Below, in pieces: positions 7,352 to 30,364 of a DNA stretch of 33,270 nucleotides (within the stretch, counting starts at the first letter, position 1; each line of letters starts with the position of its first letter). The position numbers and the translations under genes are program-made. The notes under the pieces are model-generated. The model searched no databases, was not told the origin of the DNA, and was given only the letters and a program-made list of their open reading frames with translations. The DNA comes from an uncultured Ruminococcus sp. (GTDB lineage: Bacteria; Bacillota; Clostridia; Oscillospirales; Acutalibacteraceae). The stretch spans positions 1 to 33,270 of the forward strand of contig CACWOX010000026.1 in NCBI GenBank assembly GCA_902762615.1. Reading direction: 5' to 3'.

Positions 7352-10300
7352 ATGGCCAGAAAAATGAAAACCATGGACGGCAACAACGCCGTGGCTCACG
7401 TATCCTATGCGTTTACCGACGTTGCTGCCATTTACCCCATCACGCCTTCTTCCGTAATGGCTGATGAAACCGACAAGTATGCCGCAGCAGGCAGAAAGAA
7501 CCTCTTCGGCAGAGAAGTGCAGGTCACAGAAATGCAGTCCGAAGGCGGCGCGGCAGGCGCTGTTCACGGCTCCCTTTCCGCAGGCGCTCTCACCACCACC
7601 TACACCGCTTCTCAGGGCTTGCTCCTTATGATTCCGAACATGTACAAGATGTCCGGTGAGCTGCTCCCCGGCGTTATCCATGTTTCCGCCCGTTCGCTGG
7701 CATTCCACGCACTCTCCATCTTCGGCGACCATTCCGACGTTTACGCCTGCCGTCAGACCGGCTACGCAATGCTCTGCTCCAACAATCCTCAGGAATGTAT
7801 GGACCTCGGCGCTGTGGCTCATCTGGCAGCTATCAAGGGGCGTGTGCCTTTCCTCCATTTCTTCGACGGCTTCCGCACCTCTCACGAGATTCAGAAGATC
7901 GAGACATGGGATTATGAGGATCTCGGCGACATGCTCGACTGGGACGCAGTTGACGCATTCCGCCGCCGTTCTCTCAACCCTGAGCACCCCGTACTCCACG
8001 GCTCCGCTCAGAACCCCGACATCTTCTTCCAGACCAGAGAAGCATGCAACAAGTTCTATGACGCCGTTCCCGGCATTGTCGAGGAATACATGGACAAGGT
8101 GAACGCAAAGATCGGCACCAATTACAAGCCCTTCAACTACTACGGCGCACCCGACGCCGACAAGGTCATCATCGCCATGGGCTCCGTCTGCGACACCATC
8201 GAGGAAACCATCGACTACATGAACGCAGCCGGCAAGAAGTGGGGCGTTGTGGAAGTTCACCTCTACCGTCCGTTCAGCGCAGAGCGTCTGGTTGCCGCTA
8301 TTCCTGACACAGCCAAGTACATCAGCGTTATCGACAGAACCAAGGAGCCCGGCTCCATCGGCGAGCCTCTCTATCTTGATGTTGTGGCTTCCCTTGCAGA
8401 CAGCAAGTTCGCCGGCGTCAAGATGACCTCCGGCCGTTACGGCATCGGTTCCAAGGACACCACTCCCGCACACATCATCGCTATCTACAACAACATGGAC
8501 GCTGCCGACAGCAAGAAGAGATTCACCGTCGGTATCGAGGACGACGTTACCCATCTGTCCCTCAAGGTCAGCGAGAATCCCAACACCACCCCCGAAGGCA
8601 CCATCTGCTGCAAGTTCTGGGGTCTCGGCTCTGACGGTACCGTCGGCGCCAACAAGAACTCCATCAAGATCATCGGCGACCACACCGACATGTACGCACA
8701 GGGCTACTTCTCCTACGACTCCAAGAAGTCGGGCGGTGTAACCGTCAGCCATCTGCGCTTCGGCAAGTCCCCCATCAAGTCCACCTATCTGGTCAACAAG
8801 GCAAACTTCGTCGCCTGCCATAATCCCTCCTATATGGACAAGTACGACATCGTTGAGGATCTCGTTCCCGGCGGAACCTTCCTTCTCAACTGCATCTGGT
8901 CGGGCGAAGAGCTGGAAGCCAACCTCCCCGGCAAGGTCAAGAAGTACATTGCCGACAACAATATCAAGTTCTACACCATCAACGCTATCAAGATCGGTAA
9001 GGAAATCGGTCTGGGCAGCCGCGTGAATACCGTTCTTCAGGCAGCCTTCTTCAAGCTCTCGGGCGTTATCCCGATCGAGGACGCTGTCAAGTTCATGAAG
9101 GACGCCGCCACCAAATCCTACAGCAAGAAGGGCGAAGCCATCGTCAAAATGAACCATGACGCTATCGACGCAGGCGTTGGCGCCATCGTTGAGGTCAAGG
9201 TTCCCGAGGCATGGAAGAACTGCACAGACGACACCAAGGCACATGTTGCCACCGGCAACAGACCCGAGCTGGTCAAGTTCGTCAATGACATTCTCATTCC
9301 TGTCAACGCACAGCAGGGCGACAAGCTGCCCATCTCCACCTTCATGGACAATGTGGACGGCACTCTGCCCCAGGGCTCCGCTGCTTACGAGAAGCGCGGT
9401 ATCGCCGTTGACGTTCCCGAATGGAATTTCGCCAACTGTATCCAGTGTAACTTCTGCTCCATGGTCTGCCCGCACGCGGTTATCCGTCCTGTCGCTATGA
9501 CAGAGGCTGAGGTCGCCGCCGCTCCCGCTGGCACCAAGGCAACCGATATGACCGGTCTGCCCGGCTTCAAGTTCGCTATGACAATTTCCACCCTCGACTG
9601 CACAGGCTGCGGCAGCTGCGTCACCGTATGTCCCGGCAAGAAGGGCGAGAAGGCTCTCACCATGAAGCCCATCGCCACTCAGATGAACGAGCAGGCAGTG
9701 TTCGATTACGCACAGACACTCGACGAGAAGCCTGAGGTTGCCGCCAAGTTCAGCGACGCCACCGTCAAGGGCAGCCAGTTCAAGCAGCCGCTGCTCGAGT
9801 TCTCCGGTGCATGCGCAGGCTGCGGCGAAACTCCTTACGCTAAGCTGATGACACAGCTCTTCGGCGACAGAGCCTACATCGCCAACGCAACAGGCTGTTC
9901 CTCCATCTGGGGCGGTTCCGCACCTTCCACTCCTTACACCGTCAACAAGAAGGGCTATGGTCCGGCATGGGGCAACTCCCTCTTTGAAGATAACGCAGAG
10001 TTCGGTCTCGGCATGAACCTCGCCCAGAGAGCCATCCGCGACAGACTCAAGGAATATGTCGAGAAGGTCGCCGGCTGTGACGAAGCTCCCGCTTCTGTCA
10101 AGGCAGCCGCTGAGGAATACCTCGCGACATTCGACAATTCCGCTACCAACAGAGCCGCTACCGACAAGCTCATCGCAGAGCTGGAGGCAATGGGCACCTG
10201 CGGCGAGACAGTCAAGAAGATCCTTGCTGACAAGGACTTCCTCGCCAAGAAGTCCATGTGGATCTTCGGCGGCGACGGCTGGGCATACGACATCGGCTTC

Positions 10301-10909
10301 GGCGGTCTGGATCACGTCCTCGCTTCCGGTCAGAACGTCAACGTGCTGGTATTCGACACCGAGGTTTACTCCAACACAGGCGGTCAGGCTTCCAAGGCAA
10401 CACCTGTCGGTTCCGTTGCACAGTTCGCGGCAGCAGGTAAGGCCATCAAGAAGAAGGATCTCGCTCAGATCGCTATGAGCTACGGCTATGTCTACGTCGC
10501 ACAGTGCGCTATGGGTGCTGATTACAACCAGACACTCAAGGCATTCCGCGAGGCTGAGGCATACAACGGACCTTCCCTCATCATCTGCTATGCTCCCTGT
10601 ATCAACCACGGCATCAAGGGCGGCATGGGCATCTCCATGACCGAGGAGAAGAAGGCTGTTGCAGCAGGCTACTGGCATATGTTCCGCTTCAATCCCGCTC
10701 TGGCTGATGAGGGCAAGAATCCCTTCACCCTCGACAGCAAGGCACCGAGCGCAAGCTACCGTGACTTCATCATGGGCGAAGTCCGTTACAACGCCCTCAC
10801 CCGCGCATTCCCCGAGAGAGCCGCTCAGCTCTTCGAGAAGGCAGAGAAGTGCGCAGAGGAGAAGTACAACCATCTCGTAACCCTCGAGAAGGTCTACGGC
10901 GAGGAATAA
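7352..10909 (+). CDS. nifJ: Pyruvate:ferredoxin (flavodoxin) oxidoreductase, single chain
   Basis: This 1185-residue cytoplasmic enzyme oxidises pyruvate with CoA to acetyl-CoA and CO2 and reduces ferredoxin, a central step in clostridial fermentation. The N-terminal pyrimidine-binding domain (VAAIYPITPSSVMAD) is followed by domain II, the CoA region and a two-cluster ferredoxin insert, with CIQCNFCSMVCP near 696 and CTGCGSCVTVCP near 750. The proximal cluster and thiamine domain follow, with CAGCGETPY (C821, C824), GDGWAYDIG (~974-982), the EVYSNTGGQASKATP loop and C1083 (APCINHG). Length and all cluster cysteines match full homodimeric PFOR. The start is fixed by AAGGAGG. Strong bias to C-ending codons suggests very high expression. 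Confidence 0.98.
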   Translation: MARKMKTMDGNNAVAHVSYAFTDVAAIYPITPSSVMADETDKYAAAGRKNLFGREVQVTEMQSEGGAAGAVHGSLSAGALTTTYTASQGLLLMIPNMYKMSGELLPGVIHVSARSLAFHALSIFGDHSDVYACRQTGYAMLCSNNPQECMDLGAVAHLAAIKGRVPFLHFFDGFRTSHEIQKIETWDYEDLGDMLDWDAVDAFRRRSLNPEHPVLHGSAQNPDIFFQTREACNKFYDAVPGIVEEYMDKVNAKIGTNYKPFNYYGAPDADKVIIAMGSVCDTIEETIDYMNAAGKKWGVVEVHLYRPFSAERLVAAIPDTAKYISVIDRTKEPGSIGEPLYLDVVASLADSKFAGVKMTSGRYGIGSKDTTPAHIIAIYNNMDAADSKKRFTVGIEDDVTHLSLKVSENPNTTPEGTICCKFWGLGSDGTVGANKNSIKIIGDHTDMYAQGYFSYDSKKSGGVTVSHLRFGKSPIKSTYLVNKANFVACHNPSYMDKYDIVEDLVPGGTFLLNCIWSGEELEANLPGKVKKYIADNNIKFYTINAIKIGKEIGLGSRVNTVLQAAFFKLSGVIPIEDAVKFMKDAATKSYSKKGEAIVKMNHDAIDAGVGAIVEVKVPEAWKNCTDDTKAHVATGNRPELVKFVNDILIPVNAQQGDKLPISTFMDNVDGTLPQGSAAYEKRGIAVDVPEWNFANCIQCNFCSMVCPHAVIRPVAMTEAEVAAAPAGTKATDMTGLPGFKFAMTISTLDCTGCGSCVTVCPGKKGEKALTMKPIATQMNEQAVFDYAQTLDEKPEVAAKFSDATVKGSQFKQPLLEFSGACAGCGETPYAKLMTQLFGDRAYIANATGCSSIWGGSAPSTPYTVNKKGYGPAWGNSLFEDNAEFGLGMNLAQRAIRDRLKEYVEKVAGCDEAPASVKAAAEEYLATFDNSATNRAATDKLIAELEAMGTCGETVKKILADKDFLAKKSMWIFGGDGWAYDIGFGGLDHVLASGQNVNVLVFDTEVYSNTGGQASKATPVGSVAQFAAAGKAIKKKDLAQIAMSYGYVYVAQCAMGADYNQTLKAFREAEAYNGPSLIICYAPCINHGIKGGMGISMTEEKKAVAAGYWHMFRFNPALADEGKNPFTLDSKAPSASYRDFIMGEVRYNALTRAFPERAAQLFEKAEKCAEEKYNHLVTLEKVYGEE

Positions 10910-23989: not shown

Positions 23990-24985
23990 TCAATTTTCGC
24001 TGTCTCCGTAAATATTCTGCTCCCAGATATTGTTTTCTATTTCGCGGAAATCAGTAAGCTCGAAGTTTTCTTTCAGATATGCGCCAAGATAATCCGATAC
24101 TTTTTCGGCGCCATAAACATTCAGATGACCCGGATCCGAAAAATCCTTTTTACCGTCAAATCCCACTTCATCGTACAGCTCGAAAAAATCAAGATAATAG
24201 CAGCCGTTTTCCTGAGCATATTTCGTCATTGCATCACGGTAATTGTATTCGCCGCGATAGGGATTGGTAAAGAAAACTATCTCGATGTTGTTTTTTTTGC
24301 ACAGCGCGACAATCTTATCCAATTCACTTATTGCCAAATCGCTGAGTTCCAATTGCTCAAACTGTGAGCTGTCATACAAGCTTATCGTATAAACGTTTTC
24401 ATCATGAGAAAACCCCATTGCCTTCTTATAGCCTTCCCCTATTTCAATAAAGCCAAAGTTTTCTTTTTTAAGAGAGCTCCAATTTTCATGCAGAATGAGC
24501 ACAGGGAAATAATAGGCTACATAGCTTTTGTAATTTGTACCAAAACTGTTTTTGATATATTCGCGTTTGGCTTTTTCGTTTCTCAGGTATTTTGAAGTAA
24601 AAATCTCCGCTCCGGGATCTGAATTTTGCCTGACAATACCGACATTGAATGCTTCAATAAGAGCCACCTTCGGCTTCTGATATTCCAGAGAGTCCTCAAT
24701 AAACAATCTGGTTGTATTGATTTTTTGCCAGTTCCACGCAAAATTAAAGGCGCCTATACCGTAATTGTCATAAAATACCTTCGGCTTTACGCCTCTGAAA
24801 GCATGGCTGGAGCCGTATATCATTACCTCTACGCTGTCTTTTGGAAGAGAATAAAAAAATGCAGTGCGATATTGGCAGTCAATAATATCATTCGGCTGAA
24901 AAACAGAGCTCATTTCATACAGGAAAAAGATGATCAGTCCGAGTGTAATCATACAGCTCAATATTCTTTTTAATGTTTTTTTCAT
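23990..24985 (-). CDS. SGNH-like extracellular protein (AlgX/DltD-like partner of MBOAT)
   Basis: The product is 331 residues. An N-terminal membrane anchor (about 8-25) is followed by an extracellular SGNH-hydrolase-like domain: VEVMIYGSSHAFRG with the likely nucleophile S60 after G58, VALIEAFNVG, IEIVFFTNPYRGEYN, and a C-terminal DPGHLN with D284 and H287. This matches proteins that work with MBOAT acyltransferases to O-acylate an extracellular polymer. It begins 12 bases after the MBOAT stop, with GAGGTC before the ATG, so the pair is almost certainly co-expressed. The polymer is not known from the sequence. Confidence 0.85.
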   Translation of the reverse strand: MKKTLKRILSCMITLGLIIFFLYEMSSVFQPNDIIDCQYRTAFFYSLPKDSVEVMIYGSSHAFRGVKPKVFYDNYGIGAFNFAWNWQKINTTRLFIEDSLEYQKPKVALIEAFNVGIVRQNSDPGAEIFTSKYLRNEKAKREYIKNSFGTNYKSYVAYYFPVLILHENWSSLKKENFGFIEIGEGYKKAMGFSHDENVYTISLYDSSQFEQLELSDLAISELDKIVALCKKNNIEIVFFTNPYRGEYNYRDAMTKYAQENGCYYLDFFELYDEVGFDGKKDFSDPGHLNVYGAEKVSDYLGAYLKENFELTDFREIENNIWEQNIYGDSEN

Positions 24986-24997
24986 GCTAATTGACCT

Positions 24998-26494
24998 CTA
25001 AAACTGGAAATATATAAATGCCGCGCTGTCAAGTCTCTCACCGTACTTGCCAAAAAGCAGCACTGCACAGACACATATCGCTATAAACAGCCATCTGAAC
25101 CAGTAATCCTGCTTGAGAATGATCTGCCTGATCTGTATGCCTTTTCTTTTCAATATATCCGCCATCAGCAGAATAACCGCACAAACCATAAGCAGTCTGA
25201 AATTTTGAATGTCCAGACCGCATTTATAAATGGAGCCGTCAAAGATCACCCATGGGTTTTGGACACAGAATATGGAATCTATGATATGGAATGCGTCTTT
25301 TATGCTCTGCGCTCTGAAAAAAATCCATGAAAAATCCACCAGCACAAAAGTCATGACGGTACACGCAATCCTGTGACCAAGTGAATCTCTGTGGAGTCTG
25401 AGCAGCGATACTGCCTTATCCCGAACAGGCTGAAGCGCCTCGCCGATGACCTGATAGAGTCCATTGAGTCCGCCCCACGCAAGATAGGTAAACTGGGCAC
25501 CGTGCCACAGTCCGCTGATCAGAAAGACCGTCATTTTATTCAGATATTTGCGCACCGTACCCTTGCGGCTGCCGCCCAGAGGTATGTAGAGATAATCCTT
25601 GAACCACGACGTCAGGGAGATATGCCAGTTTCTCCAGAATTCGCCAACCGATCGGGAAAGATACGGCGCATTGAAGTTTTCCATCAGCCGTATGCCCAGA
25701 AACATGGCGGCTCCCATTGCGATTGTGGAATATCCTGAAAAATCACAGTAGATCTGCACCGCAAAAAGCACCGTGGCAACTATCAGATAATAGCCCCCAT
25801 ATGTCGTGTAATCGCCGTAAACCGTATCCACGAACACCGCTATTCTGTCGGCGACAACCAGCTTCAGAAAGAAGCCCCACAGCATAAGCAGAAAGCCTTC
25901 CCTCGCCATGTCATAGTCAAACTTTTTAGGCTCGGCAAGCTGCTTGAGCAGGTTTTTCGATCTCTCGATGGGTCCTGCTACAAGCTGCGGAAAGAAAGAG
26001 ACAAACAGCGCGTATTGAAAGAAATTTCTTTCGGCGTATATCTCATCGCGGTAAACGTCCATTGTATAGCTCAGTGCCTGAAACGTGTAAAATGATATGC
26101 CAACCGGCAAAATCACATCCACTGTCGGCGCCGACAGGCTTATATGCATAAGGGCAAAAATCTTTGTGAGATTAAACAGAATAAAATTGGCATATTTAAA
26201 ATAGCATAATATTCCTAAATTTGAAACAAAGCTCAGCGCGACGACGGTTTTTTTATACCTTCTCTTTTTGACAGCATCTGCCTCCATTTTCTTGACTTTT
26301 TCCAGAAGCAATCCGCTGGCATATGTGATAGCGGTCGATGTGAAAATCAGAATGGCGTATTTCGCATTCCAGCACATATAAAAATAATAACTCGCCGCAA
26401 GAAGCCAGAGCTGCTTGACTTTTTTGGGAATTACAAAATACACCAGCAGCACAATCGGAAAGAAAACCAAGAAACCTACTGAATTAAATAACAT
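24998..26494 (-). CDS. MBOAT family O-acyltransferase (AlgI/DltB-like)
   Basis: This 498-residue multipass membrane protein transfers acyl groups across the membrane. Typical parts are FPIVLLVYFVIPKKVKQLWLL near the start, PVGISFYTFQALSYTMDVYR, FPQLVAGPIERSKNLL, FCDFSGYSTIAMGAA-like YCDFSGYS, FWRNWHISLTSWFKDYLYIPLGGSRKG, and the catalytic His in ISGLWHGAQFTYLAWG. These fit the PatA/AlgI group. The start MLFNSVGFLV at 26494 has GAAAGG 10 bases upstream; an ATG at 26512 gives six more residues but no site. It lies 60 bases after the polyferredoxin gene, so one long transcript is possible, and it is followed closely by its SGNH partner. Confidence 0.93.
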   Translation of the reverse strand: MLFNSVGFLVFFPIVLLVYFVIPKKVKQLWLLAASYYFYMCWNAKYAILIFTSTAITYASGLLLEKVKKMEADAVKKRRYKKTVVALSFVSNLGILCYFKYANFILFNLTKIFALMHISLSAPTVDVILPVGISFYTFQALSYTMDVYRDEIYAERNFFQYALFVSFFPQLVAGPIERSKNLLKQLAEPKKFDYDMAREGFLLMLWGFFLKLVVADRIAVFVDTVYGDYTTYGGYYLIVATVLFAVQIYCDFSGYSTIAMGAAMFLGIRLMENFNAPYLSRSVGEFWRNWHISLTSWFKDYLYIPLGGSRKGTVRKYLNKMTVFLISGLWHGAQFTYLAWGGLNGLYQVIGEALQPVRDKAVSLLRLHRDSLGHRIACTVMTFVLVDFSWIFFRAQSIKDAFHIIDSIFCVQNPWVIFDGSIYKCGLDIQNFRLLMVCAVILLMADILKRKGIQIRQIILKQDYWFRWLFIAICVCAVLLFGKYGERLDSAAFIYFQF

Positions 26495-26553
26495 TTCGCA
26501 AAAACCTTTCATTCATGATTGCATTCACCGTTGCCCCGGCAATGTTTTATGTT

Positions 26554-27414
26554 CTATGCTTTATGCTTTGAATCTATCGTTCCCGCATGATTTCTGACAG
26601 TCAGACATGTAAAGCAGATGGCTCCGTGAGGGCAGCCGCTCACGCATTTGCCGCACCTGATGCACTCGGGATGATTGGGCGCAGCAACAGGATTCACCGC
26701 CATATCGCATACCTTGGCACATGCGCCGCAGTTCACGCATTTATTGCCGTCCACATGAAGACGGACTGCCGACACCTTATTGAACAAAGCGTAAAATGCG
26801 CCGAGGGGACAGATGTATTTGCAGAAGGGTCGTGCGATAACGATTGAGGTAAAAACCACAGCCATCAGCACTGTTGCCTTCCATGTGAATATCCCGCCCA
26901 ACAGCGATCTGAGTCTGCTGTCAGCTGCCGACAGCATTATGCCCGAGAGCGTGCCGGACGGACAGACATATTTGCAGAAAAACGGCGTGAATTTATAAGT
27001 AAACGGCAATATCAGCACCATGATAAGAAGCATGGCGTATTTGATATATCTGAGCTGCCTGTCGCCTCGGAATGTGCGCAGCTTCTTGGGCGAAGGCACC
27101 CTGAAAAGCAAATCCTGCAAAAATCCGAACGGACACAGAAATCCGCAGATCAGCCTGCCGAATGCCGCGCCGAAGAACATCATCAGCCCCAATACATAGT
27201 ACGGAAATCTGAATTTCCACGCCGAAACGGCATTTTGCAGCGACCCCAGCGGACAGGCTCCCAGCGCTCCGGGGCAGGAATAGCAGTTCAGTCCCGGCAC
27301 GCATACATTTTTTCCCGCGCCGGTATAAATCTGCCCTGTAAAAAAGCCTTTGACATTGGCGTTTTGCAGCGCAGCCGCAGCAGCCTGAATGAACGTTCTC
27401 TTTTTGTTATCCAA
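26554..27414 (-). CDS. Membrane polyferredoxin, 4Fe-4S binding (NapH/CcoG-like)
   Basis: The product is 286 residues. A Cys-rich N-terminal motif VCVPGLNCYSCPGALGACP (C38, C44, C47, C54) is followed by about four to five transmembrane helices with CGFLCPFG (C90, C94), CKYVCPSG (C147, C151) and CKYICPLG (C198, C202). Two ferredoxin-type clusters come next: C226/C229/C232/C236 and C251/C254/C257/C261, then CFTC. Such proteins pass electrons through or along the membrane. The likely start is TTG at 27414, with GGAG 10 bases upstream. It overlaps the stop of the CXXC peptide gene by 8 bases. The frame continues to 27453 without a site. Confidence 0.88.
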   Translation of the reverse strand: MDNKKRTFIQAAAAALQNANVKGFFTGQIYTGAGKNVCVPGLNCYSCPGALGACPLGSLQNAVSAWKFRFPYYVLGLMMFFGAAFGRLICGFLCPFGFLQDLLFRVPSPKKLRTFRGDRQLRYIKYAMLLIMVLILPFTYKFTPFFCKYVCPSGTLSGIMLSAADSRLRSLLGGIFTWKATVLMAVVFTSIVIARPFCKYICPLGAFYALFNKVSAVRLHVDGNKCVNCGACAKVCDMAVNPVAAPNHPECIRCGKCVSGCPHGAICFTCLTVRNHAGTIDSKHKA

Positions 27415-27556
27415 TGCCGATACACTCCAGACAAATCCGAACAGCCTTGGCAAGCACCTGATGATTCTGTTTCATGGCGACGCCGGCAGCAATTAATATC
27501 ACGGCGGTCAAAAGCAGCCCAGCCGTCAGAAGATTTTCATTTTTGAGCCAACTCAT
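27407..27556 (-). CDS. CD1871A family CXXC motif-containing small membrane peptide
   Basis: This 49-residue gene has GAGG six bases before the ATG at 27556. MSWLKNENLL is followed by a transmembrane helix (about 10-27) and then HQVLAKAVRICLECIGIG, ending directly after the CLEC motif. The ICLECIGIG ending is the hallmark of the CD1871A-type clostridial peptides, whose function is unknown. It is 13 bases after the thioredoxin-like lipoprotein gene and overlaps the polyferredoxin start, so the three are probably translated together. The CXXC could act as a thiol relay or hold a cluster; this is inference. Confidence 0.85.
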   Translation of the reverse strand: MSWLKNENLLTAGLLLTAVILIAAGVAMKQNHQVLAKAVRICLECIGIG

Positions 27557-27569
27557 TTTTTTCCTCATT

Positions 27570-28103
27570 TCAGCCCTTGAGATAAGAGAGAATCACGCCT
27601 TCCCACTCCTCATAGGACTTCGAGCCGACATAAGGCACATCGGAAAGCACCTTGCCGCTGCCGTCGGTGAAAAAGGTGGTGGGTACATATCCGGTCTGGA
27701 ATTTATCAAACGCCGCGCAGGACTTTATCATGGGATATTTTATACCGTTTTCGCTGATGATATCCTTCAGACCGTCGGTGTCGCTGTAAACACCCACTAT
27801 CATCAGACCCTCGGACTTGTATTTTTTGTAGAGCTTCTGCAAATCGGGCAGTTCACTTCGGCAGGGAGCGCACCACGGCTCCCACATGTTGAACATAATC
27901 ACCTTTGCCGTGCTGTAATCTTCAAATGTGACCTTCTTGCCGTTGATATCGGTAGTGGTAAAGCTGAATTCTTCCGCCTGCTCCGCTTTGGCAGAGCGGG
28001 TATCAGTATCGCTGACAAAGTTCTTTTTGGGAGAGGAACAGGCAACAAGAAGAAACACGGAAACCGCCAGCAGAACCGCAAGCGGCTTTTTTACGATTTT
28101 CAT
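27570..28103 (-). CDS. TlpA/ResA-like thioredoxin-fold lipoprotein
   Basis: The product is 177 residues. The signal ends in a lipobox with Cys22 (LLVACSS), so the protein is probably anchored outside the membrane. The redoxin domain begins at about 45 (FSFTTTDINGKKVTFEDYS) and has the active site WCAPC (C78, C81) in IMFNMWEPWCAPCRSELPDL, and the cis-Pro P142 in GYVPTTFF. A further Cys130 is present. This fits thiol-disulfide reductases such as ResA/TlpA. AGGAGG lies before the ATG. It heads a group with the CXXC peptide and the membrane polyferredoxin, which suggests that it receives electrons from them. Confidence 0.93.
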   Translation of the reverse strand: MKIVKKPLAVLLAVSVFLLVACSSPKKNFVSDTDTRSAKAEQAEEFSFTTTDINGKKVTFEDYSTAKVIMFNMWEPWCAPCRSELPDLQKLYKKYKSEGLMIVGVYSDTDGLKDIISENGIKYPMIKSCAAFDKFQTGYVPTTFFTDGSGKVLSDVPYVGSKSYEEWEGVILSYLKG

Positions 28104-28246: not shown

Positions 28247-30364
28247 TTATTTCAGAGTAATGGTTGCCGGATTGGAATTGACGCTTTTGCCGGAGACATC
28301 GGTTATCTTGCAATAGACCTTCATGCCGTTCCAGCTGTTATTTGCTGTAGCCGTGGTAGCAGCTGTAGTGTGCCCATTCCACAGGCTCCACGCGCTCGCG
28401 CCGGATTTCCTGTAGTACCACTGATACTTCAGACCCTCACCTTCCGCAACTACGGTAAAGGCAACTGTATTGCCGGATTTTACCGAAATGTCGGCAGGTT
28501 GAGCCGTTATTTTGAGCGCCTTGATAAGAGTGACGGTAACGGTATCGGATTTCACGGAATTGCCGCTGCCGTCCTTTACCAGACAATAAAGCTGTATGCC
28601 GTTCCATGTGGAGTTGGGCGTCACGGTTTCAGACGCGTGAGTGCGTCCGTTCCATACAGACCACGCGGAAGCGCCCTTTTTCTTGAAATACCACTGGTAT
28701 GTCAGACCGCTGCCGGTTGCTTTGACAGATAAAGTCAGCGAGTCTCCCTGATGAATCGTTTTGCTCTGGGGCTGCGATGTTATCTTAATCGCGGAAACAA
28801 TCGTAATGGTTGCAGCGCTGGAATTCACCGAATAACCGCTGCTGTCGCTCACCTTACAGTAAACCTTCATGCCGTTCCAGCCGTCGTTTGAAACAGCGGT
28901 AGTGGTGGCAGTGGTGTGGTTCTTCCACAGGCTCCATGATGTCGCGCCGGATTTCTTATAATACCACTGGTATTTGAGCCCCTCACCGCTTGCCACAACC
29001 GTGAATGCAACGTTACTGCCCGACTTTACCGAAATGTCGGCAGGTTGAGCCGTTATTTTGAGCGCCTTGGCAACAGTGATGGACGCGGCATTGGAATTGA
29101 CCGAATAGCCGTTTCCGTCGGTCACTTTGCAGTAAACCTTCATACCGTTCCATGTGTCATTTGACACGGCGGATGTGGTTGCGGTGGTATGATTATTCCA
29201 TACGCTCCAATCAGAAGCGCCTGATTTTTTATAATACCACTGGTATTTCAGACCGCTTCCGGTGGCTGCAACGGTAAAGCTCACCTTATCGCCCGACCTT
29301 ACCGAAACATTGGCAGGCTGTGTCGTAATTTTGACCGGAGGGTTGACGGTGACAAATAATGTGCGCGTCTTTCCGGCGTAGCTCACGGTGATGGCTTGTG
29401 TGCCCGTTTTACCGAGAACGGAGGGCGAACAGGTAAAGCCGCTTGTAATGCTCCTGCTGCTGCCGTCCTCATAATTTACGGAAAGTATCATGCCGCTTGC
29501 GTCGAACTTCTCGCCCAGCAAATATGTCATTTTATTCGGATTCTGCTTGACGGTAATGGAGGAAACTACCTTTTCTCCGGTTGTAGTGAGGGATTTCACG
29601 CCGGACTGGTACTCATTGCCGTCAACCACCACAAAGAATTTATAATAATATGTCGTTCCGGAATACAGCGTGATGCCGCACTCGCTCGTGAGATCATACC
29701 AGATATTCTCGGTGTATTTGCCGATCGACTCGGTGTGACGCTTGGTCATATTGCCGGTTGATGTCCCGAGATAAAATCCAGCCGACGTAATGCTCATGCC
29801 CGAAATCGTAGCACGTATAACAGAATTGGTATTGGTGGTGTTTTCGCTCCATACATTTGTGAACGGCCATGTGCCGGAACCGCTGTTCCAATTGGGGCGG
29901 ATAACGCCCCAGTAGGGATTGCCAAGCCCGTTGTATTTATAGCCGACCTTTTCCACATATGAATGGTAATTGAAATTCTGATGATATGTCACATAATCGG
30001 ATTCATATATGGCGACATGTCCGTAGGGGTTGGAATCGTTTCCGGAATATACAAGGATATCACCTTTCTGAGGCTGTGCGCCCTGGATTCTCTGCCATCC
30101 CGCGGGAAGCGTATTCCAGGCATAATCGCAGGCATTGCCGGAGGAACGGCTGACGCCCAGATAATCGTAATACGCAAGAATCAGATCGACGCATTGTGCG
30201 CCGTACGAACCGTCCATATCGAGGCTCTGTCCAACCTTGCTCTGCACCCACGATATCGCATCATTCTGCGTTCTGCTCGTTGCGTGCGCCATAGCGGAAG
30301 GCATAGCAAGAAACGCCATCATCAATGCTAAAAGAACACTTGCAAGTCTAACGCGTCTTTTCAT
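28247..30364 (-). CDS. Secreted CHAP-domain peptidoglycan hydrolase with Ig-like repeats
   Basis: The product is 705 residues. A signal peptide (1-~27, ending AMAHA) is followed by a CHAP domain (about 34-160) with C58 (GAQCVDL) and H116 (YGHVAIY), the pair expected for an amidase/endopeptidase on cell-wall peptides. A fibronectin-like segment (~165-265) and a Big_3-like domain (~268-342, YLLGEKFDASGMILSVNYEDGS) come next. Four Ig-like repeats of about 91 residues (344-705) each contain a YQWYYKKSGA..W..W core and WNGMKVYCKV. No sorting signal or binding motif such as LPXTG is seen, so it is probably released or held by its repeats. It has a consensus promoter and its own terminator. Confidence 0.93.
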   Translation of the reverse strand: MKRRVRLASVLLALMMAFLAMPSAMAHATSRTQNDAISWVQSKVGQSLDMDGSYGAQCVDLILAYYDYLGVSRSSGNACDYAWNTLPAGWQRIQGAQPQKGDILVYSGNDSNPYGHVAIYESDYVTYHQNFNYHSYVEKVGYKYNGLGNPYWGVIRPNWNSGSGTWPFTNVWSENTTNTNSVIRATISGMSITSAGFYLGTSTGNMTKRHTESIGKYTENIWYDLTSECGITLYSGTTYYYKFFVVVDGNEYQSGVKSLTTTGEKVVSSITVKQNPNKMTYLLGEKFDASGMILSVNYEDGSSRSITSGFTCSPSVLGKTGTQAITVSYAGKTRTLFVTVNPPVKITTQPANVSVRSGDKVSFTVAATGSGLKYQWYYKKSGASDWSVWNNHTTATTSAVSNDTWNGMKVYCKVTDGNGYSVNSNAASITVAKALKITAQPADISVKSGSNVAFTVVASGEGLKYQWYYKKSGATSWSLWKNHTTATTTAVSNDGWNGMKVYCKVSDSSGYSVNSSAATITIVSAIKITSQPQSKTIHQGDSLTLSVKATGSGLTYQWYFKKKGASAWSVWNGRTHASETVTPNSTWNGIQLYCLVKDGSGNSVKSDTVTVTLIKALKITAQPADISVKSGNTVAFTVVAEGEGLKYQWYYRKSGASAWSLWNGHTTAATTATANNSWNGMKVYCKITDVSGKSVNSNPATITLK
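28250..29335 (-). repeat. Four tandem ~273-bp repeats inside the CHAP gene
   Basis: Residues 344-434, 435-525, 526-616 and 617-705 are four direct repeats of 91, 91, 91 and 89 residues, each an Ig-like domain. Repeats 2 and 4 are closest (both begin LKITAQPADISVKSG), and repeat 3 is the most diverged (IKITSQPQSKTIHQGD). This pattern suggests duplication of domain units followed by drift, and the copy number could change by recombination. Confidence 0.88.

Follow-up and report, generated by a model that had tools for sequence, protein, structure and literature searches.

The 33,270-nucleotide stretch of contig CACWOX010000026.1 from an uncultured Ruminococcus sp. (hereafter the window, meaning the whole analyzed stretch) carries on its minus strand three consecutive genes, encoding a TlpA/ResA-like lipoprotein, a 49-residue peptide of the CD1871A family with a C-terminal CxxC motif, and a membrane polyferredoxin. 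This trio is a real conserved module, and the three genes probably form a single transmembrane pathway for thiol reduction that fulfills the function of CcdA/DsbD by another route. To a more specific reading we give slightly better than even chances: the iron-sulfur (Fe-S) polyferredoxin and the approximately 50-residue CxxC peptide, once possibly containing selenocysteine, would act as a ferredoxin-driven thiol reductase that exports electrons to TlpA and stands in for CcdA/DsbD in a considerable fraction of anaerobic Clostridia and related bacteria. A preliminary description of this DNA had interpreted the trio as an extracytoplasmic electron relay; that interpretation is well supported as far as the module is concerned and partly supported with respect to the pathway.

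Such a module would provide a concrete and testable answer to the question of how anaerobes lacking CcdA/DsbD and classical menaquinone keep their extracytoplasmic thiols reduced. It would also assign a role to a named but uncharacterized peptide family and represent a membrane converter from Fe-S to thiol chemistry.

Co-occurrence and Arrangement of the Three Genes

The peptide profile NF040920 matches 25 of the 148 genomes in a class-level sample, and a polyferredoxin profile matches the same 25 genomes (E <= 1e-60, weakest score 382 bits). Since the latter was built from these very genomes (alignment A2, 23 rows: 22 from the loci of the class search and one from the window), the informative part of the result is the other 123 class genomes, none of which reaches the threshold. 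At the phylum level (398 genomes, partly shared with the class sample), the peptide profile matches 63 genomes and the polyferredoxin profile 64 (E <= 1e-40); all 63 are common to both, and the extra genome is G626.

The local arrangement was compared in 187 loci, which are not all independent, as some species are present in two collections (e.g., L103 and L159). The polyferredoxin gene lies on the peptide's strand in 184 of them. The distance from the peptide end does not exceed 150 bases in 175 of these loci, is 151–500 bases in six, and is larger in three (L172, L186, and L189). An overlap of 8 bases with an in-frame start codon, as seen in the window, recurs in 102/184 loci. A same-strand polyferredoxin is missing in L073, where the contig ends, in L205, which has a relative of the peptide without cysteines, and in L062, where another gene follows. 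A same-strand TlpA gene is found within 500 bases of the pair in 158/187 loci, i.e., 20/25 for the class loci, then 19/19 and 72/80, and 47/63 in the last set. It precedes the pair in 124 loci, including four with one TlpA gene on either side, and in 34 loci it is found only after the pair. Dropped before counting were duplicates (L021, L035, L045, L143), wide re-reads (L138–L142), and SelB loci (L027–L034), as well as L047 and L048, re-read as L205 and L206 within the sample from the family of G096, which is counted in the last set of 63.

The preliminary description had made its proposal depend on whether the three genes rarely occur together elsewhere; they stand together in most loci. Closely spaced genes are frequent in bacteria anyway, which could be cited in favor of a chance neighborhood of three unrelated redox genes, but this explanation, to which we give practically no credence, is rejected because of the co-occurrence in both genome samples and the proximity of TlpA to the pair, on one side or the other, in most loci.

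The module is widespread. The named loci, 80 of at least 430 confirmed relatives, include Lachnospiraceae, Ruminococcaceae, Oscillospiraceae, Selenomonas, Treponema, another member of Spirochaetaceae, Atopobiaceae, Desulforamulus, and Peptostreptococcus. Plasmid and phage collections yielded four further matches, and the three examined all contain the three genes. These are a replicon of Peptoclostridium acidaminophilum, in which a transporter gene on the other strand lies between TlpA and the pair, and two contigs from faeces that were deposited as phage sequences. Clustering of 690 neighboring open reading frames (ORFs) from 143 loci, with groups present in at least four loci considered, revealed no further conserved partner (Msr, cytochrome, or CcdA) beside the trio. 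The largest neighbor groups occur in 18, 17, and then 7 of the 143 loci, the first two being, in our reading, generic ABC ATPases and histidine kinases.

Some individual loci deviate from the common layout. In L128 and L135, some 3.8 kb separate the pair from the sole TlpA match, which lies upstream instead of being adjacent. In L172 (G273:C1:2792000-2799500), about 2 kb between the peptide and the polyferredoxin hold a 443-aa ORF whose product, judged by eye, resembles a group II intron reverse transcriptase.

Distribution of CcdA/DsbD

CcdA/DsbD proteins, counted by PF02683 at E <= 0.001, are present in 74/148 class genomes, namely 7/25 with the pair and 67/123 without it (Fisher p 0.027, uncorrected for phylogeny). 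The phylum sample has them in 270/398 genomes, with 19/63 for pair-bearing genomes compared to 251/335 for the rest (Fisher p 2e-11, again uncorrected). Their distribution is thus partly complementary to that of the pair. That a separate CcdA-like partner might do the job had been raised in the preliminary description; no PF02683 match is present in genome G000, listed as 95.92% complete, and such proteins are under-represented where the pair occurs. The trio proteins themselves have no match to DsbD_TM (PF02683) in a Pfam scan.

Within four families of the phylum sample (f85, f90, f93, f112), pair-bearing genomes lack CcdA and the listed pair-less relatives have it, while in two others (f83, f97) CcdA accompanies the pair in most or all of the genomes that bear it. 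As the tables omit some negative genomes, this family-level pattern is only an impression.

Predicted Topology of the Polyferredoxin

The polyferredoxin contains 18 cysteines, all conserved in 70/70 rows of alignment A3, where Cys44 and Cys47 belonged to the selection motif. This alignment comprises 69 of the 80 named polyferredoxins and that of the window; truncated or overly long sequences and those containing X or lacking a CYSCP-type motif were excluded. In A2, Cys38, Cys44, and Cys47 are present in 23/23 rows and Cys54 in 22/23. Two classical 4Fe-4S motifs and three CX3CP motifs were identified (Table 1), in agreement with the clusters C226–C236 and C251–C261 and the membrane CxxxC motifs of the preliminary description, which did not mention the N-terminal set of Cys38, Cys44, Cys47, and Cys54.

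The density of lysine and arginine residues (K+R) in the loops was used for prediction of the topology. The N-terminus, with 3.08 K+R per 10 residues, is predicted to be inside, together with Cys90/94 and Cys198/202, while Cys38–54 and Cys147/151 are predicted to be outside. Combined with the topology of the peptide (see below), this arrangement would make six polyferredoxin cysteines and both peptide cysteines face TlpA. The earlier placement of the clusters inside and of the peptide CxxC and TlpA outside agrees with this charge-based prediction and with the lipobox of TlpA.

The polyferredoxin fold is predicted with confidence (AlphaFold2 pLDDT 88.3, pTM 0.84), and the model has no Foldseek match among solved structures at E <= 0.001. 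A sequence search of PDB retrieved ferredoxin-type proteins, with the best-matching stretches in the C-terminal cluster region (among the best 60 of 150 matches). Fer4_5 (PF12801) is matched by 70/70 A3 homologs at E 0.001. The threshold of the NapH/MauN family (TIGR02163) is missed, with 71.3 bits against a cut-off of 213.05, and the Pfam families matched at E 0.1 include no flavin mononucleotide (FMN)-binding domain, a trait of NosR and RdhC.

The CD1871A-family Peptide

The peptide belongs to the CD1871A family by its score above the curated cut-off and its C-terminal CxxC. Its model (AlphaFold2 pLDDT 77.7, pTM 0.37; alignments A1 and A4) has a membrane helix at residues 5–27 and a second helix at residues 31–45, which ends with the CxxC. 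Both cysteines are invariant in A1, where the UGA of locus L017 was entered as C, and in A4 (78 named peptides and that of the window), although the 80 named loci are uninformative in this respect, as they were retrieved by a pattern demanding both cysteines and the glutamate. By net charge, the N-terminal side is more positive in 66/78 homologs and less positive in 5/78, which places the CxxC, as a prediction, outside the cell, on the side of the lipoprotein. No PDB match to the peptide profile was found at E 1. We noticed no fusions of the peptide to TlpA or to the polyferredoxin, although no systematic search was made.

A second branch of the family has peptides ending with CIGIQ, CIGIE, or CIGLR. 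In the CIGIQ-ending members L176, L181–L184, L186, L188, and L189, the stretch read contains no TlpA match. Two of these loci, L181 and L188, adjoin an opposite-strand ORF with a 2Fe-2S-like start (RCGKCK), which possibly encodes another acceptor. Degenerate forms were also observed: in the relative in L205 (G198:C1), the two cysteines are lost (SLHYIGIG), and the 7.5 kb read around it include no polyferredoxin, while the peptide reading frame of L206 (G176:C1, formerly L048) is disrupted, with no TlpA nearby.

TlpA and Selenocysteine

The TlpA protein of the window has an LVAC lipobox with Cys22, read from the sequence. Its assignment to TlpA/ResA-like lipoproteins is based on this lipobox, the CAPC active site, an AhpC-TSA score above the cut-off, and the PDB match to ResA, while the threshold of the ResA family proper (NF002854) is missed, with 77 bits against a cut-off of 170.

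The first active-site cysteine of TlpA is replaced by an in-frame UGA (TGA) codon in 22 loci. SelB scores above the cut-off in 19/20 genomes with UGA-TlpA (those of all these loci but the named L103 and L137), compared to 9/22 comparison genomes that were chosen for having Cys-TlpA (p 2e-4). The single UGA-TlpA genome without SelB, G423, is listed as 90% complete. A hairpin resembling a selenocysteine insertion sequence (SECIS) with a 5-base stem follows the codon in 22/22 UGA-TlpA loci vs. 21/131 loci with Cys; with a 6-base stem, the counts are 8/22 and 10/131. The hairpins were judged by the bacterial SECIS rule with cut-offs of our own, and the false motif L187 was excluded from the UGA set in these counts. 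The mean folding z is -1.05 for UGA-TlpA and -0.15 for Cys in a set that still includes L187. With a UGA at the redox cysteine, SelB in all but one of the genomes covered, and a SECIS-like hairpin, the TlpA partners in these 22 loci have the features of bacterial selenoproteins, and selenocysteine is supported at the sequence level for many TlpA partners of the pair. A selenoproteome review, in the part accessible to us, lists UGC-containing TlpA (PMC13188914); hence selenocysteine-containing TlpA is already known. The terms NF040920 and CD1871A were not found in that part of the review.

In the peptide of L017 (genome G096), the first cysteine of the CxxC is encoded by TGA, and the genome contains SelB. 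None of the six Rfam matches at this locus, all below the gathering scores, is to a SECIS family.

Evidence Against the Proposed Pathway and Alternative Roles of Its Components

A number of observations weigh against the proposed replacement of CcdA/DsbD by a peptide relay to TlpA. CcdA is also present in 19/63 pair-bearing genomes of the phylum sample, and the CcdA statistics ignore phylogeny. No TlpA gene is found within 500 bases of the pair in 29/187 loci, some of them at the ends of a contig or of the fetched stretch, and wider reads around the pairs of G096, G067, and G028 lack TlpA as well. Conversely, the contig of a metagenome-assembled genome (L062) has TlpA and the peptide with no polyferredoxin downstream. 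The polyferredoxin L016 in A2 lacks Cys54. The UGA in the peptide is one case among 186 loci with the motif. The hairpin energy at L017 is not unusual, ranking 52/185 by z; its 6-base-stem hairpin is matched in just 5/184 Cys peptides, a criterion chosen post hoc. Finally, the peptide is tied more strictly to the polyferredoxin (184/187 loci) than to TlpA (158/187).

The latter difference suggests that the peptide is possibly a polyferredoxin subunit. Its two cysteines, together with Cys147 and Cys151, could then hold an outer 4Fe-4S cluster, and the complex would reduce TlpA directly; the overall pathway would be the same, with the peptide having a structural role and not that of a thiol relay. 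Consistent with this arrangement are the near one-to-one tie of the two proteins, the existence of pairs without an adjacent TlpA, and the conservation of the six outer-face cysteines of the polyferredoxin, which with those of the peptide make eight, sufficient for two clusters. On the other hand, the paralogous polyferredoxins L207, L208, and L209 (the G626 copy and the second copies in G273 and G390), where CQYCR or CSSCP replaces CYSCP, keep the outer cysteines, Cys147/151 among them, although the sequence immediately upstream showed no peptide. The UGA at the first peptide cysteine of L017 would also better suit a redox-active thiol, albeit as a single case; this argument is weakened by the Fe-S proteins with UxxC that are also listed in the accessible part of the selenoproteome review (PMC13188914). 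Overall, we regard the purely structural role of the peptide as rather unlikely.

The pairs without an adjacent TlpA might also be explained if TlpA acted in maturation, maintaining the outer cysteines of both the polyferredoxin and the peptide in reduced form for cluster assembly, with the pair feeding some other acceptor. TlpA/ResA-type proteins do serve in the assembly of metal sites, such as cytochromes and copper sites. But TlpA would still require a reductant in this case, yet CcdA is rarer in pair-bearing genomes, and no alternative acceptor gene commonly recurs nearby. Hence, we consider this role of TlpA improbable.

Electron Donor and Proposed Route

MenB scores above the cut-off in none of the 25 pair-bearing class genomes, compared to 7/14 control genomes. 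Nine of the 25 have sub-cut-off matches (147–168 bits vs. 342.7), which we read as crotonase relatives. This lack of MenB, which marks the classical and not the futalosine route, speaks against classically made menaquinol as the electron donor. Given the C-terminal clusters and the NifJ gene in the window, ferredoxin would be the natural alternative. NifJ, already noted in the preliminary description, scores well above its cut-off (Table 1) and is a possible source of reduced ferredoxin, without being linked to the trio.

The pathway that we infer, including its ferredoxin donor, the direction of electron flow, the relay order, the substrate, and the exact role of the peptide, would operate as follows. 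Reduced cytoplasmic ferredoxin, e.g., from NifJ, would pass electrons to the two 4Fe-4S clusters in the C-terminal part of the polyferredoxin, from where they would cross the membrane via the inner-face CX3CP motifs (Cys90/94 and Cys198/202) and the outer-face Cys38/44/47/54 and Cys147/151. The peptide, bound to the polyferredoxin, would use its outward CxxC to convert one-electron Fe-S chemistry to two-electron dithiol chemistry and would hand the electrons over to the TlpA lipoprotein, which in turn might reduce disulfides or other oxidized thiols outside the cell.

Nothing in the sequence fixes the direction, and the flow could be reversed, so that electrons are drawn from TlpA, which then makes disulfides, toward a sink such as ferredoxin or another carrier. 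However, both the ResA-like sequence of TlpA and the complementarity with CcdA point to reduction. Furthermore, low-potential 4Fe-4S clusters favor electron export, and selenocysteine occurs mostly in reductases. Reverse flow therefore appears very improbable.

Relation to Known Systems

The proposed pathway resembles the CcdA/DsbD-ResA/StoA/TlpA pathways in combining a membrane carrier with an extracytoplasmic TlpA/ResA-like lipoprotein. It differs in the carrier, which is an Fe-S polyferredoxin with a one-helix CxxC peptide instead of a thiol-only DsbD_TM protein. One-electron transfer from ferredoxin to two-electron disulfide reduction has a counterpart in ferredoxin:thioredoxin reductase, although the latter is a soluble enzyme with another fold. 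The membrane module with CX3CP motifs is shared with the Fer4_5 proteins NapH/MauN, NosR, and RdhC/PceC, and C-terminal 4Fe-4S clusters with NapH and NosR. In contrast to the two CX3CP motifs reported for those proteins, the polyferredoxin has three, plus four extra cysteines on the outer side. Its partners are different as well, namely TlpA and the peptide, and it has neither an FMN-binding match nor, in the 25 class genomes, an accompanying MenB. For the related proteins, it is unsettled whether clusters are bound or disulfides are formed by the CX3CP motifs (PMC5928378). A flavinylation-linked DsbD gene cluster with a DUF4266 CXC micro-protein, as described in the accessible part of its report (PMC8238504), uses DsbD, ApbE, and DUF3570, i.e., protein families other than those of the trio.

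The preliminary description knew of no described pathway for the CD1871A-type peptide, a statement to be qualified. A literature search for CD1871A itself retrieved no paper, but an operon like the trio has been reported. A preprint of November 2025 (PMC12637426) reports, in the parts covered here, a three-gene operon in stool contigs of Clostridia that predicts immune-related adverse events in two melanoma cohorts; it is termed novel, and a role in redox balance is suggested. Consisting of a 4Fe-4S protein, TlpA, and a CxxC protein, it matches the trio by its description. Hence, such an operon has already been noticed, and the function of the module bears on the clinical correlation, as an operon of this description is a stool marker for side effects of immunotherapy. 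The covered parts of the preprint contain no work on topology, transmembrane mechanism, genome distribution, or selenocysteine. The ferredoxin-driven replacement of CcdA, the co-occurrence, the complementarity with CcdA, and the selenocysteine evidence were not found in our literature searches.

In C. difficile 630, the genes CD1863–CD1870 have been assigned to the conjugative transposon CTn5, and CD18710 carries the label conjugative transposon (PMC3158075, PMC12772354). Judging by its gene number, the CD1871A locus of this strain may itself be mobile.

Gene Layout and Neighbors in the Window

Both the sequence and the ORFs confirm the order TlpA, peptide, polyferredoxin on the minus strand, with the 13-base gap (27557-27569) and the 8-base overlap given in the preliminary description. 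A Shine-Dalgarno-like GAGG stretch (27566-27563) precedes the ATG codon of the peptide at 27556, and another in-frame ATG is present upstream at 27568.

Table 1. Features of the trio and of the NifJ gene, with positions in the window
Feature	Position	Strand	Evidence
Membrane polyferredoxin, 286 aa, TTG start; Fer4_5 superfamily, NCYSCP subfamily	26554..27414	-	Fer4_5 (PF12801) 78.4 bits vs. cut-off 22
Cys38, 44, 47, 54 (CVPGLNCYSCPGALGACP), predicted outside	27253..27303	-	70/70 in A3; loop 0.88 K+R per 10 residues
CX3CP motif 1 (Cys90, Cys94), predicted cytoplasmic face	27133..27147	-	70/70; loop 1.97 K+R per 10 residues
CX3CP motif 2 (Cys147, Cys151), predicted outer face	26962..26976	-	70/70; loop 0.46 K+R per 10 residues
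CX3CP motif 3 (Cys198, Cys202), predicted cytoplasmic face	26809..26823	-	70/70; segment 1.30 K+R per 10 residues
4Fe-4S motif Cys226-229-232-236	26707..26739	-	Fer4; 70/70
4Fe-4S motif Cys251-254-257-261	26632..26664	-	Fer4_6 and Fer4_9; 70/70
Overlap of peptide end and polyferredoxin TTG start, 8 bases	27407..27414	-	Sequence TTGGATAA
CD1871A-family peptide, 49 aa, C-terminal CLECIGIG	27407..27556	-	NCBIfam NF040920 CD1871A_fam 48.4 bits vs. cut-off 32
Peptide CxxC, Cys42-Leu-Glu-Cys45	27422..27433	-	Invariant in A1 and A4; first Cys is UGA in L017
TlpA/ResA-like thioredoxin-fold lipoprotein, 177 aa	27570..28103	-	AhpC-TSA 64 bits, Redoxin, PDB ResA E 6e-21, lipobox
TlpA active site Cys78-Ala-Pro-Cys81 (WCAPC; W77-CAPC-R)	27861..27872	-	Sequence; first Cys is UGA in 22 homologous loci
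NifJ, pyruvate:ferredoxin (flavodoxin) oxidoreductase	7352..10909	+	TIGR02176 1832 bits vs. cut-off 911

The gene directly upstream of the trio (28247-30364) encodes a 705-residue protein with Ig-like repeats (Ig_3, Big_3). Directly downstream (23990-26512) are genes for an MBOAT acyltransferase, DltB-like and below the DltB cut-off, and for a weakly GDSL-like protein.

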